Below are positions 4,713-59,427 of a stretch of 64,000 nucleotides of DNA, in pieces (the stretch's first letter is position 1; every line of letters begins with the position of its first letter). Under the pieces are notes generated by a model that made no database searches, was not told the DNA's origin, and saw only the letters and a list, made by a program, of their open reading frames with translations. The translations under genes and the position numbers were made by a program. This DNA comes from Fibrobacter sp. UWB13 (GTDB lineage: Bacteria > Fibrobacterota > Fibrobacteria > Fibrobacterales > Fibrobacteraceae), in assembly GCF_900177805.1 (NCBI RefSeq), contig NZ_FXAX01000001.1, positions 186,001-250,000 on the forward strand, read 5' to 3'.

Positions 4713-4763
4713 AATGAGGTCCGATATTTAAAGGTTTATACGGGTGGAAAGATAGTAAATGAG

Positions 4764-4798
4764 TAGACGGTAGGAAGTAGGCAGTAGGCTGTAGACGG
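4764..4798. repeat. Heptamer tract (TAGNNNG)5
   Basis: Five contiguous 7-base units, TAGACGG TAGGAAG and three more, all starting TAG and ending G. It lies between the start of the GH116 gene and the small membrane-protein gene. It is the GC-rich version of the period-7 family seen at several other gene borders in the window. Confidence 0.75.
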
Positions 4799-4809
4799 TG
4801 GGCTGAATT

Positions 4810-9344: not shown

Positions 9345-9353
9345 TGATGGTTT

Positions 9354-9388
9354 TTAGTCATTAGTCTTTGGTTATTAGTTTTTAGATA
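9354..9388. repeat. Heptamer tract (TTAGNNN)5
   Basis: Five 7-base units after the PBP1A stop: TTAGTCA, TTAGTCT, TTGGTTA, TTAGTTT and TTAGATA. TAG recurs on the sense strand of the upstream gene. The tract sits before the terminator hairpin. Confidence 0.7.
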
Positions 9389-9395
9389 ATATTTA

Positions 9396-9420
9396 AAGGA
9401 GCCTGCGCGGCTCCTTTTTT
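9396..9420 (+). terminator. Terminator of the PBP1A gene
   Basis: AAGGAGC and GCTCCTT pair around a 7-base loop and are followed by TTTTT. Confidence 0.85.
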
Positions 9421-17883: not shown

Positions 17884-17936
17884 CATGCCCGCCGGAGCCT
17901 GTCCTGAGCGTAGCCGAAGGATGCGGGCATCTCCAT
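17884..17936. repeat. Dispersed repeat with ATGCCCGC...GCGGGCAT arms
   Basis: ATGCCCGC at the left and GCGGGCAT at the right enclose GGAGCCTGTCCTGAGCGTAG-type sequence. Related pieces occur at 22165, 25619 (inside rsgA) and 63588. It lies between the converging GH9 and DUF218 genes and may also serve as their terminator hairpin. Confidence 0.65.
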
Positions 17937-19346: not shown

Positions 19347-19365
19347 TTGTGATTCCAGCTTTTCT

Positions 19366-19393
19366 CTTCCTACTGTCTACTTCCTACCGCCTA
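19366..19393. repeat. Heptamer tract (CNNNCTA)4
   Basis: Four units, CTTCCTA CTGTCTA CTTCCTA CCGCCTA, directly abut the tsaB stop. On the minus strand, which is the sense strand of tsaB, every unit supplies a TAG. Confidence 0.75.
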
Positions 19394-20023
19394 CTAAGTT
19401 TTCAGCTTCTCGAAGTAAGAGGGCTGGATGTAGTTCGCTTCTTGAATGAGCGAAGGCTTCACTGTATCAAAAAGCGGAGTCCACATGTTGAGCTTCTTAT
19501 CGGTGTCGAGAGTCGTTGCGATTCCCTTGTCCTTGAACACGGCGACGAGCGCTTCGTCTGCAAGTGCAGCTGCATCGACAACGGCGTTCTTCACAGAACT
19601 TGCCTGGAGTCGTGCAACGACATCTGCAGTTTCGATAAAGCTCTCTTCGTTGTTCAAGCGCAAGTACCAGAATCCATTGCGTGCACGAATTACGACTGCT
19701 ACAGATTCATCGGAAACGCCGGCAAAGCAGGCGAGTGCTTGCAATGTCGTCACACCATACAAATTGCGTTTGCCGCTGAAGCAAAGCCCCTGGCAGAATG
19801 CAACGCCCGTGCGCAGTCCGCTGAACGAACCCGGTCCGACAGTCACCATGACGCGCTTCACGTCATCGAGAGTGGCGCCGACCTTAGCCAAAAGGTTATC
19901 CAAGCTTGCGCTCAGAATTTCGCCCTTGGCAGACGGATCGACCATTTCTTCGTACACGGAGTCCGCGCACAGCGCCATTGCAATACCCTTTCGGGATGTG
20001 TCTACAAAAAGATCGTAGTTCAT
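19394..20023 (-). CDS. tsaB: tRNA threonylcarbamoyladenosine biosynthesis protein TsaB
   Basis: A 209-residue ASKHA-fold partner of TsaD for the t6A37 modification of ANN-decoding tRNAs. The N-terminal block DLFVDTSRKGIAMAL and the family signature VGPGSFSGLRTGVAFCQGL are clear. It starts 2 bases after the ddl stop, so it is tightly coupled to ddl. tsaD is not in the window. Confidence 0.93.
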   Translation of the reverse strand: MNYDLFVDTSRKGIAMALCADSVYEEMVDPSAKGEILSASLDNLLAKVGATLDDVKRVMVTVGPGSFSGLRTGVAFCQGLCFSGKRNLYGVTTLQALACFAGVSDESVAVVIRARNGFWYLRLNNEESFIETADVVARLQASSVKNAVVDAAALADEALVAVFKDKGIATTLDTDKKLNMWTPLFDTVKPSLIQEANYIQPSYFEKLKT

Positions 20024-24808: not shown

Positions 24809-24926
24809 TGATTTTCCCTTCGATTATAGCAGAATAATAGACAAAAAATACCTCTGTGAAAAGAGTCATGTCTTTAAAATTGCCTTAAATGTGCGAAAAA
24901 ATAGTTCAGTACGACTATACTGCTAC

Positions 24927-25010
24927 GTCATCCAGAGCGAAGCGATGGATCCAGTAAAGTCTAGTTATCAAGAAATAACTGGATGTTTCGTTCTTTGAAC
25001 TCAACATGAC
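24927..25010. repeat. Dispersed intergenic repeat
   Basis: CGTCATCCAGAGCGAAGCGATGGATCCAGTAAAGTCTAG is followed by AGTTAT-CAAGAA-ATAACT, a small hairpin, and CTCAACATGACG. It matches the 4810-4858 element at the GGATC-AGTAAAGTCT end. The rest of the 24809-25055 gap shows nothing else. Confidence 0.55.
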
Positions 25011-25055
25011 GTCTATAGGGGCTAAGCTCTAAGTTCTAATTTCTATCTTTACACT

Positions 25056-25343
25056 ATGCCTTTTTTTACGAAGAGTAATTTGGAAGATTTGAGAAAGGAA
25101 GCGGAACAGCTTTCTATTTGTGTTGAGCATTTTCTGTACGCCTCGGAACATATTCCCGAAAGTGACTGGAAAACGAAAGGTTTTTATGACAATTGCATCG
25201 AAAAGTGCAATGGCCGCCTGAAGGCGATTCATTTTTTGATGGAATCAATTCGCCGTGGACGCCCGGTGACTGAAGAGGAATTGGAAGAAGCGCGGGAGCT
25301 TGAAGACGAAAAACTTTCTAAATTGAAGAAAGATGCGAAATAA
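25056..25343 (+). CDS. Hypothetical helical protein upstream of rsgA
   Basis: A 95-residue charged, largely helical protein with no membrane segment or recognised family. Its C-terminal third is very rich in Glu and Lys (EEELEEARELEDEKLSKL). Its end overlaps the start of rsgA by 11 bases, so the two are translated together. This coupling suggests a ribosome- or RNA-related role, but that is inference only. Confidence 0.6.
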   Translation: MPFFTKSNLEDLRKEAEQLSICVEHFLYASEHIPESDWKTKGFYDNCIEKCNGRLKAIHFLMESIRRGRPVTEEELEEARELEDEKLSKLKKDAK

Positions 25344-26541
25344 CGATTTTGATTCCGACGAAAATGAAGCCCCATTGAAGAGTGTTCGCACGTCCAGGCG
25401 CGAACACAGAAGCCGCCGTATCGACGTGATGCGTGAATTGGAATCGGGAGTTGTTGATGAACGTCCGATCAAGGAACGTTTCAGTCGCGAATTTAAAAAG
25501 GCGAAAATCAAGCGCATCAAGAATCCGGTCGAAAACATCGGTGAAGAAAATTGCGTGGAAGGGCTTGTGCTCGAAGTCCACCGCCGCACCTGTGAAGTGA
25601 GATTAAACGAGAAGGAGGTGCCCGCTCAAGGCGGGCATGACAACCTTCCTACTTCCGACTTCCTACCGTCTACTGTTACCGCCATGTACCGTGCGACGAC
25701 GTCCAAAACGCTCGGGGAATTCCCTGCCGTGGGCGACCGTGTTTTGCTCGGACTCGTGAATGATGCTGATGATGAAGGCGATGGTGTCGGTTCGCAGAAG
25801 TATTGCGTTGTGCGAGTGCTCCCGCGAAAGAGCGAACTCAAGCGCCCGGGTCCGCGCGATAGCTTCTACAAGCAGCAGACGCTTGCCGCGAATATCGATC
25901 AGGTTGTGATTGTCGCAAGCGTGACGCAGCCGGAATTCAACTACGGGTTCATGGACCGCTTTTTGCTTGCCGCAAACTTGAACGATTTGCCGTTTGTGCT
26001 GGTGCTTACCAAGATGGATTTGCTGCCGAATGGCGAAGCGGACCTATCGACGGATATCCGTGATTTTATGAAAATCGTGGACAAGGTGATTCCCGTGAGC
26101 GTTAAAAGCGGGGATGGTCTCGAAGTCCTGCGCAATGAACTCGTCGGTAAATCTTCGGTCTTTAGTGGCATGAGCGGTGTCGGCAAGTCTACGCTCATCA
26201 ATGAGCTTGTTCCGCATGCCGAACTGCGCACGGGAGATGTCCGCGAACGTGACGGCAAGGGTCGTCATACGACGACCTCTTCGAGCTTGTTCGATTTCCC
26301 GGGTGGCGGTTACGTGATTGATACGCCGGGTATCCGTAGCATAGGTCTTATGGACATGGAACCCGAAACGCTCGCTAAGATTTTTCCGGGATTCTTTGAA
26401 GATGACTTGTTTACGTGCAAGTTTAGCAACTGCAAACATCTCAAGGAACCGGGTTGCGCTGTGCGTGAGGCTGTGGAATCGGGCAAAATCTCCGAAGCCC
26501 GTTATGCAAGCTATGTACGAATTTTGAATTCAGGAAAGTAA
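25333..26541 (+). CDS. rsgA: Ribosome small-subunit-dependent GTPase A, carrying an in-frame repeat insertion
   Basis: A circularly permuted GTPase that helps mature the 30S subunit. Motif order is G4 TKMD, G1 SGVGKST, HTTT switch and G3 DTPG, followed by the zinc site CKFSNCKHLKEPGC. The first 70 residues are a charged extension. Inside the OB-fold domain, residues about 95-117 (VPAQGGHDNLPTSDFLPSTV) are encoded by two non-coding repeat types known from gaps in this window. The frame stays open, so the protein may still work. At 402 residues it is longer than usual. The upstream small gene overlaps it. Confidence 0.93.
   Translation: MRNNDFDSDENEAPLKSVRTSRREHRSRRIDVMRELESGVVDERPIKERFSREFKKAKIKRIKNPVENIGEENCVEGLVLEVHRRTCEVRLNEKEVPAQGGHDNLPTSDFLPSTVTAMYRATTSKTLGEFPAVGDRVLLGLVNDADDEGDGVGSQKYCVVRVLPRKSELKRPGPRDSFYKQQTLAANIDQVVIVASVTQPEFNYGFMDRFLLAANLNDLPFVLVLTKMDLLPNGEADLSTDIRDFMKIVDKVIPVSVKSGDGLEVLRNELVGKSSVFSGMSGVGKSTLINELVPHAELRTGDVRERDGKGRHTTTSSSLFDFPGGGYVIDTPGIRSIGLMDMEPETLAKIFPGFFEDDLFTCKFSNCKHLKEPGCAVREAVESGKISEARYASYVRILNSGK
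25619..25678. repeat. Composite dispersed repeat inside rsgA
   Basis: TGCCCGC-TCAAG-GCGGGCA (25619-25637), then ATGACAA, then heptamers CCTTCCT ACTTCCG ACTTCCT ACCGTCT ACTGTTA (25644-25678). The first part matches the ATGCCCGC/GCGGGCAT repeat family and the second the CNNNCTA heptamer family. Confidence 0.8.
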
Positions 26542-26545
26542 TTCA

Positions 26546-26956
26546 ATGTCTGATTATGTTGTAAAAATTGCGCTCATCGCTTCGATTATTCTGATGGGCT
26601 ATAATATTTCGGAATTTGTGGCTAGCTATAAGGTCGTTTCTGAAAAAGCAAGCCAGTTTTTGCAAATGGCAAAAGACAATGCCGCCTCTGATGCCGATTT
26701 GCGCAGGTCCAATCTTTTGCTGTCTAGTGTGTTATCTATCGGCTATTCGGTGCTGATTTATTTTTCGGATATTGTGATTTGGCTTGTGGCTGTTGTGGTC
26801 GGCAAGTTGTTAATCACGTTGCTTATTTCGGATAAGGTCTTGATTCAAGTCTTACAAGACAGAACGCTTTCTCAAAAGAATTTTCTTGTCTCAAAGTACG
26901 ATGCTCTTTTGAATGCGGTAATGGGGCTTGTCTTTGCTTTAGCTTTGGTATTGTAA
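26546..26956 (+). CDS. Hypothetical membrane protein
   Basis: A 136-residue protein with hydrophobic segments at about 5-25, 53-85 and 120-136, and a polar helical loop (SEKASQFLQMAKDNAASD) after the first. No family is recognised. It starts 4 bases after the rsgA stop and ends 1 base before the next gene, so it is part of the rsgA operon. Confidence 0.6.
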   Translation: MSDYVVKIALIASIILMGYNISEFVASYKVVSEKASQFLQMAKDNAASDADLRRSNLLLSSVLSIGYSVLIYFSDIVIWLVAVVVGKLLITLLISDKVLIQVLQDRTLSQKNFLVSKYDALLNAVMGLVFALALVL

Positions 26957-46608: not shown

Positions 46609-46617
46609 GCGACAATT

Positions 46618-46652
46618 CTAATAACTATTGACTAATGACCAATGACTAGAAT
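46618..46652. repeat. Heptamer tract overlapping the rpiA stop codon
   Basis: CTAATAA CTATTGA CTAATGA CCAATGA CTAGAAT run directly into the rpiA end; the stop TAG is the complement of CTA in the last unit (46646-46648). In the rpiA sense strand TAG recurs every 7 bases. Confidence 0.75.
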
Positions 46653-47335
46653 TCAATCAAGCCCTTGGCTTCGTCAGCGAGGATGACCTTCGTTGCCATG
46701 TTGATGAACAGGCCGTGTCCGACGATACCCACGATGTGTTCCAGATCACGGGCGAGCTTGTCCGGGTCTGCGATGGGGGCGAACTTTGCGTCGGCGATGA
46801 GGTTACCGCTGTCGCTAATCACCGGACCGTCCTTGCCAGGAGCGCCCATGCGAACCTTGACTTCGCCACCGAGCTTTTTCACGCGTTCGGTCACGACCGC
46901 GATAGCACCCGGGATGATTTCGAGAGGGACGGCGAACTTGGTGCCGAGCTGCTGCACGGCCTTGCCGGAGTCTGCGATAATCACGTAGTTATCCGTCATG
47001 GAGGCGACAATCTTTTCGAGGAGGTGAGCTGCACCGCGGCCCTTGATGAGGTTACGGTTCGGGTCGATTTCGTCGGCGCCGTCGATAACCATGTCGAGGT
47101 GGCTCACTTCGCCCATTTCCTTGAGCGGGATGCCGAGGCTACGGCATTGGAGTGTGGTGCTCCAGCTGGTCGAAACGCCCGTCACATGGATGCCTTCGGT
47201 CTTGATGCGTTCGGCAAGGCGGTTCACCATGTGAGCTGCCGTGCTGCCTGTGCCGAGACCGACAATCATTCCGTCCTTGATCATGTCTGCGGCACGAACG
47301 CCTGCAGCCTTCTTGAGTTCATCCATCGATGCCAT
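46646..47335 (-). CDS. rpiA: Ribose-5-phosphate isomerase A
   Basis: RpiA interconverts ribose 5-phosphate and ribulose 5-phosphate. Signature segments are VGLGTGSTAAHMV, DGADEIDPNRNLIKGRGAA and GVVGHGLFIN-like end GIVGHGLFIN. The start at ATG 47335 is preferred to 47344, because AAAGGAG lies immediately before 47344 and at 9 bases from 47335. That ATG overlaps the stop of the FKBP gene (TAATG). The product has 229 residues. Confidence 0.95.
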   Translation of the reverse strand: MASMDELKKAAGVRAADMIKDGMIVGLGTGSTAAHMVNRLAERIKTEGIHVTGVSTSWSTTLQCRSLGIPLKEMGEVSHLDMVIDGADEIDPNRNLIKGRGAAHLLEKIVASMTDNYVIIADSGKAVQQLGTKFAVPLEIIPGAIAVVTERVKKLGGEVKVRMGAPGKDGPVISDSGNLIADAKFAPIADPDKLARDLEHIVGIVGHGLFINMATKVILADEAKGLIEF

Positions 47336-55613: not shown

Positions 55614-55668
55614 TCATCTCGGCCGCTTTGTCACCCCGGATTTATTCCGGGGCGGGATCTACTATGCT
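55614..55668. repeat. Dispersed intergenic repeat between the regulator and GH8 genes
   Basis: TTGTCATCTCGG, GTCACCCCGGATTTATTCCGGGG (CCCCGG and CCGGGG arms) and CGGGATCTACTATG, between converging genes; the strong hairpin could also terminate both transcripts. Confidence 0.5.
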
Positions 55669-59292: not shown

Positions 59293-59405
59293 TTGGTCAT
59301 TGGTCAATGGTCTGTAGTTTTTGTAATTAGTCTATGTATGCTGAAATAGCTAATGACTAAAGACTAGTGACTAGTAACTAACGACTAATAACTAATGACG
59401 AACCT
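59293..59405. repeat. Long heptamer tract between divergent endonuclease I and folC genes
   Basis: Left half: TTGGTCA TTGGTCA ATGGTCT GTAGTTT. Right half: CTAATGA CTAAAGA CTAGTGA CTAGTAA CTAACGA CTAATAA CTAATGA, seven contiguous period-7 units beginning CTA. The halves are roughly inverted with respect to each other (TTAGTCA-like versus TGACTAA-like), so a hairpin is possible. Confidence 0.85.
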
Positions 59406-59427
59406 CTAACTTTCTATATTGTAGACC

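Follow-up and report, generated by a model that had tools for sequence, protein, structure and literature searches.

The window that we analysed, a 64,000-nt stretch of the Fibrobacter sp. UWB13 genome, carries rsgA at 25333..26541 (+), encoding a 402-aa small-subunit biogenesis GTPase. The product was assigned to the RsgA family by Pfam (PF03193), and its nearest relatives of known structure are RsgA chains, including several solved in complex with the 30S subunit (E. coli 5no2 and 2ykr). Comparison with orthologues delimited a variable loop at 25603..25674 (+), corresponding to the 24 residues 91-114 of RsgA (LNEKEVPAQGGHDNLPTSDFLPST), a position where empty orthologues have 5-8 residues; a preliminary description had placed the insert at about residues 95-117. 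The reading frame is unbroken across the loop. At its left end is an arm, TTAAACGAGAAGGAGG (25603..25618, +), whose counterpart in relatives, TTAGACGARAG, is an inverted match of the heptamers on the right-hand side. The REP-like palindrome AAGGAGG-TGCCCGC-TCAAG-GCGGGCA-TGACA spans 25612..25642 (+) and is 94-97% identical to intergenic copies. Its core, TGCCCGC-TCAAG-GCGGGCA at 25619-25637, has a perfect 7-bp stem, and its TGACA tail at 25638-25642 gives a TGTC tag on the opposite strand. The right-hand side of the loop is a period-7 array of four degenerate heptamers in the stop-free orientation, CTTCCTA-CTTCCGA-CTTCCTA-CCGTCTA-CT (25645..25674, +), 30 bp that are 96.7% identical to a non-rsgA array in L123. 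Among the peptides of the RsgA loop of the window species is EVPAQGGHDNLPTSDFLPSTVTAMYR. The insert of the window allele did not fold clearly better than shuffled sequences (z −1.57); those of L018 and L023 each form a single long hairpin (z −3.35 and −5.33, respectively). A search of positions 24900-26600 against Rfam 15 gave no match up to E = 1.

Both the palindrome and the heptamer families are otherwise almost wholly intergenic. The 23-mer palindrome was found at 13 places in the own genome with up to 3 mismatches, compared with 0 for a reversed control, and the chance expectation for the palindrome pattern at up to 2 mismatches is 0.30 per window. Across 864 kb of the own genome we detected 38 TGACA-tagged perfect hairpins, against 0-3 with most scrambled tails, and just 4 of the 38 lie inside predicted genes. 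Of 46 copies, 40 have an A directly after TGAC and 2 have a G, which defines the tag as TGTC. Heptamer units here are of the CTAATGA, CTTCCTA, CTCGTCT, CTAAGTT and GAATTCC types. Period 7 dominated the tandem repeats of non-coding DNA (49 arrays at 20/28 matches, 3 of the 49 in predicted genes), while periods 4, 5, 8, 10, 11 and 13 gave 0-2 arrays each; period 7 is thus near-exclusive across the 864 kb examined.

The earlier claim that both elements recur in the gaps of the window held for the heptamers, which occupy six stretches. These are an array of the CTACCGC/CTTCCTA type at 4757..4808 (−), arrays at 9345-9396 and 46611-46653, one of the same type as in rsgA at 19359..19394 (+), a CTAAGTT-type array at 25010..25059 (+) in the gap 5´ of the small ORF that precedes rsgA, and two opposed arrays, TTGGTCA and CTAATGA, at 59293..59413, of a mostly closed type that has no representative in rsgA. 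The claim failed for the exact palindrome: the only other window member of the perfect-stem TGACA hairpin family lies in a gap at 55634..55652 (−), and exact copies are found elsewhere in the genome. Another gap of the window, at 17886-17932, holds a TGCCCGC...GCGGGCA palindrome with a CCTGAGCGTAGCCGAAGGAT element nested in its loop.

RsgA was recovered from 58 genomes of the genus, many of the relatives being represented by metagenome-assembled genomes. The flanks of the loop, EVHRRTCEVR and VTAMYRAT, are invariant or almost so, and between them the loop ranges from 5 to 54 residues; it is always stop-free, and no internal stop was present in RsgA from any of the 58 genomes. The loop is empty, with 6-8 residues, in the outgroup family (6 aa in L071 and L072) and in the early-branching L060-L066 clade; it is also empty in L069 and, with 5-8 aa, in many species besides the outgroup. 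Elsewhere we observed fillings of CTTCCTA arrays, opposed CTCGTCT/AGACGAG arrays, CCGAACT and CCTGGAA arrays and TGACA palindromes, with nested palindromes in L016. The inserts match intergenic repeats at 93-98% identity over 31-88 bp, and the long-loop palindrome of L046 and L047 has an intergenic counterpart in the window's own genome (88 bp aligned at 93% identity). The alignment of Fibrobacter RsgA proteins that had been suggested as a check thus bore out that repeats of intergenic type have been inserted in frame into the OB domain, as the segment is missing from orthologues or replaced there by different repeats. The turnover is extensive: on a tree of the rsgA flanks, the filling class switches at least 28 times and the empty/filled state at least 11 times. 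The L050 and L044 alleles, whose flanks are 2.5% apart with no SNP peak beside the loop, have unrelated fillings. G045 (9 contigs, 100% complete) has the same 24-residue filling as the window, with flanks that are 3.7% diverged. Some of the filling changes may reflect exchange between lineages, in which loop alleles are swapped by homologous recombination between species, and not new insertions.

rsgA proved not to be the sole genic target: HemA, TilS and CobA-HemD emerged when we scanned for REPs and compared coding against intergenic DNA. In the own genome, in-frame copies of the repeat families of rsgA are present in HemA, in TilS, in a CobA-HemD fusion and in one lipoprotein linker, and the linkers of an AhbAB-like protein, a family assigned by inspection alone, probably carry repeats as well. 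Across the genus, HemA has one repeat-filled variable loop and TilS three. CobA-HemD has several separate repeat sites. Individual elements are shared between proteins: the peptide LNEKEVPAQGGHDN is common to RsgA here and TilS of G001, a different species, and a PSPYADHAHISAKALSDQR element is carried by G004 in both RsgA and TilS, by G050 in RsgA and by G045 in TilS. The insertion first described for rsgA is therefore real but was drawn too narrowly, since it represents a single allele of a loop that is hypervariable throughout the genus and has counterparts in TilS, HemA and CobA-HemD. Several other apparent in-gene arrays resemble start-codon miscalls at gene edges and were left out of the counts.

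We considered whether a single insertion in the ancestor of the genus, followed by just slippage, deletion and drift together with exchange of loop alleles between species, might explain the RsgA loop with no repeated insertion. Repetitive DNA is prone to slippage and recombination, many filled alleles share the end motifs TTAGACGA ... TCGTCTAA, and related fillings have been kept in G000/G045 and in the L018/L020 clade, all as expected from such a history. We nevertheless judge it unlikely, since several unrelated fillings match separate intergenic families (REPs, GATCCTTCGACT...CAGGATGAC elements, and CCGAACT and CCTGGAA arrays), the early-branching L060-L066 and L069 lineages and the outgroup are all empty, and TilS and CobA-HemD have three and several sites of their own.

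The repeats found in rsgA are a filtered set. Of the 154 arrays outside rsgA, 92 are of the CTAATGA or CTAAGTT type, and the majority of these lack an open frame on either strand; such mostly closed types account for at most 2 of 26 distinct arrays within it (Fisher p 6e-7, an optimistic value given that related alleles are treated as independent). CTTCCTA arrays, a type that is open mainly on one strand, are in the open orientation in all 10 instances in rsgA, and the open-frame count thereby confirmed that the heptamers lie in the orientation free of stops. The scarcity of closed array types in rsgA is the signature expected when purifying selection maintains the frame. Selection does not preserve any one peptide, because the palindromes are translated in four open frames, all of which were found in proteins (EMPAQGGHD-like, LKAGMT, CHAGLRSGIS and VMPTQVGI).

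A structure prediction for the window RsgA was weak overall (mean pLDDT 56) and was used for strand order alone. The OB strands in the model are at residues 74-83, 86-91, 114-119, 136-141 and 157-163, and residues 95-112, between the second and the third, have pLDDT <50 in this weak model. The segment is modelled as a disordered loop between OB strands, and the insert is predicted to lengthen the turn that joins strands 2 and 3.

With a probability of nearly 80%, we read the window segment as one allele of a repeat-filled loop in a genus where small repeats spread and purifying selection keeps in-frame, stop-free copies in tolerant loops. Loop fillings are swapped between close relatives, and on this reading the lineage has again and again made protein sequence out of repeat DNA. 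REP-like palindromes and heptamer-armed hairpins would spread through Fibrobacter genomes, mostly into gaps, moved by an enzyme or by a single-strand DNA process. A genic copy would survive only if its length were a multiple of three, its frame open and its host loop tolerant of added residues, terms that the turn between OB strands 2 and 3 of RsgA, the three TilS loops and the HemA and CobA-HemD loops would satisfy. A resident repeat would then make its site prone to more entry or replacement, in the form of nested REPs, changes of heptamer type and deletions. This would be why the RsgA loop turns over fast while the rest of the protein is conserved. We infer that events ran in this order, and the loop peptide is probably neutral, tolerated rather than selected. 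More tentatively, a live process might insert small repeats with a preference for the tips of hairpins already present (a REP inside another REP or inside a heptamer hairpin), so that a genic repeat becomes a permanent landing site, a possibility to which we give limited credence. If true, hairpin-tip insertion would allow loops of housekeeping proteins to evolve fast with no dedicated transposase involved.

The active spreading mechanism that the preliminary description proposed stands insofar as elements are gained and lost between relatives; present-day activity is something we infer, and a dedicated transposase was not found in the genomes searched. The hairpin with its conserved end tag has the architecture of a RAYT substrate, and the own genome encodes an IS200-type Y1 transposase, but movement of the palindromes by a RAYT, as proposed for GTAG REPs, is improbable. 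The own-genome match is an IS200-like TnpA of 147 aa, the tag is TGTC (40/46) and not GTAG, and the combination of a GTAG tag with a RAYT gene was found neither in the own genome nor in the genus genomes. Furthermore, Y1_Tnp (PF01797) had no match in 41 of 61 genus genomes, including the near-complete, filled-loop G045 and G050, and we rejected a RAYT as the mover.

Diversifying selection on the loop, for example if RsgA were tuned to its own ribosome and the repeats were only a convenient source of sequence, might also explain why a single site in a single protein has changed time and again in most species. This explanation is quite improbable, given that the unrelated TilS, HemA and CobA-HemD are filled by the same repeat elements as RsgA in several frames, that 5-8 residues suffice in many species, and that the loop is predicted to be disordered. 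Although many relatives are metagenome assemblies, an assembly error or a miscalled gene with an untranslated segment can be set aside as highly improbable, as the frame is kept in 58 of 58 genomes with conserved domains on both sides and the 24-residue filling is shared with the 9-contig G045 assembly across the 3.7% flank divergence.

Several known systems resemble the Fibrobacter repeats in part. Small palindromic repeats lie in frame in exposed regions of conserved housekeeping proteins in Rickettsia (RPE-4/6/7) and Wolbachia (WPE) (Ogata et al.; PMC3767692); in the Rickettsia palindromic elements ATGAC is a characteristic motif, and different RPE groups share one site in orthologues (PMC3767692). 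The Fibrobacter palindromes likewise lie in frame in housekeeping proteins, with different elements at one site, and have many intergenic copies and in-frame, stop-free insertions in conserved proteins that are missing in orthologues. They also contain an ATGAC motif, a likeness noted at the level of the motif. However, Fibrobacter belongs to another phylum, and its heptamer arrays form arms or replace the palindrome. Whereas Rickettsia RPE sites were reported to be filled in every orthologue examined (PMC3767692), many Fibrobacter species retain the empty state, and fillings are exchanged between alleles that have diverged by a few percent. CGTC-tagged intragenic REPs are 20-40 bp stem-loops with a conserved GTC-type end tag, mostly intergenic, with some in ORFs, including RNA-related genes, and they have no known dedicated transposase (PMC3733652, in which Fibrobacter is not named). 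The Fibrobacter stem-loops are of similar size, likewise end in a conserved GTC-type tag and are mostly intergenic, with some in ORFs, RNA-related genes among them, and no dedicated transposase found, but their tag is TGTC in 40 of 46 copies and not the CGTC tetranucleotide. The TAACTGA direct repeats of Beggiatoaceae, Cyanobacteria and Bacteroidetes are intergenic 7-bp arrays near genes, a few of them overlapping or inside ORFs, and their origin is unexplained (PMC4679880). The Fibrobacter arrays are also intergenic with few in ORFs; unlike TAACTGA repeats, they comprise at least five degenerate types, none with the exact TAACTGA unit, are often opposed around a hairpin, and when in ORFs lie in the middle of conserved proteins. 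Finally, the P6b stem-loop of the Nostoc tRNA-Leu (UAA) intron holds length-variable repeat arrays in a conserved gene, with side insertions and replacement of repeat classes (PMC4476775). Fibrobacter rsgA has comparable length-variable arrays in which one repeat class replaces another, but the Nostoc case is an RNA intron and not protein coding.

No report of Fibrobacter heptamers or intragenic REPs was found in the open-access literature searched, and they are not mentioned in the S85 genome paper's main text. As far as the searched literature shows, the novelty lies in how these features combine, in the phylum and in the speed of turnover. Rickettsia and Wolbachia have supplied most of the known protein-coding palindromes, as inserts of long standing. 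In Fibrobacter, such sites pass between empty, filled and refilled states over about 60 sampled species, and matching copies lie in gaps within the genus; this makes it possible to test how small repeats that have no known transposase move and how non-coding repeats are converted into protein sequence. The variable stretches of RsgA, TilS, HemA and CobA-HemD in Fibrobacter derive from repeats, and they are best masked before trees are built or functions assigned. The hosts of the repeat-filled RsgA loops are rumen and gut Fibrobacter.

We also noted repeat variation at other sites. An alignment of G000 with G045 over 283 kb showed repeats in gaps that are present in one genome and absent from the other. 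At G000:C1:775773 the difference is a perfectly clean 94-bp indel, a hairpin with heptamer arms, and no target-site duplication was visible at this single perfectly clean indel examined. The 94-bp unit (G000:C1:775755-775883), which consists of opposed CTAATGA-type arrays around a GGCGCCAATGGCGC hairpin and is cleanly missing from G045, is a candidate mobile unit. The neighbouring tetrapyrrole genes hemA (G000:C1:433772-435076) and cobA-hemD (436638-438524) differ between G000 and G045 in their in-frame repeats. TilS (tilS G000:C1:909765-910961; L200-L229) has three hypervariable repeat loops that are more extreme than that of RsgA, with an open frame of about 480-550 aa in some species. About 4.8 kb downstream of the rsgA start in L115 and L120, a 517-523 aa protein has an N-terminal tail of REP and heptamer sequence (MFRRKNSSVILSGVEGSKKKSLVSR...), and its start codon may be miscalled.
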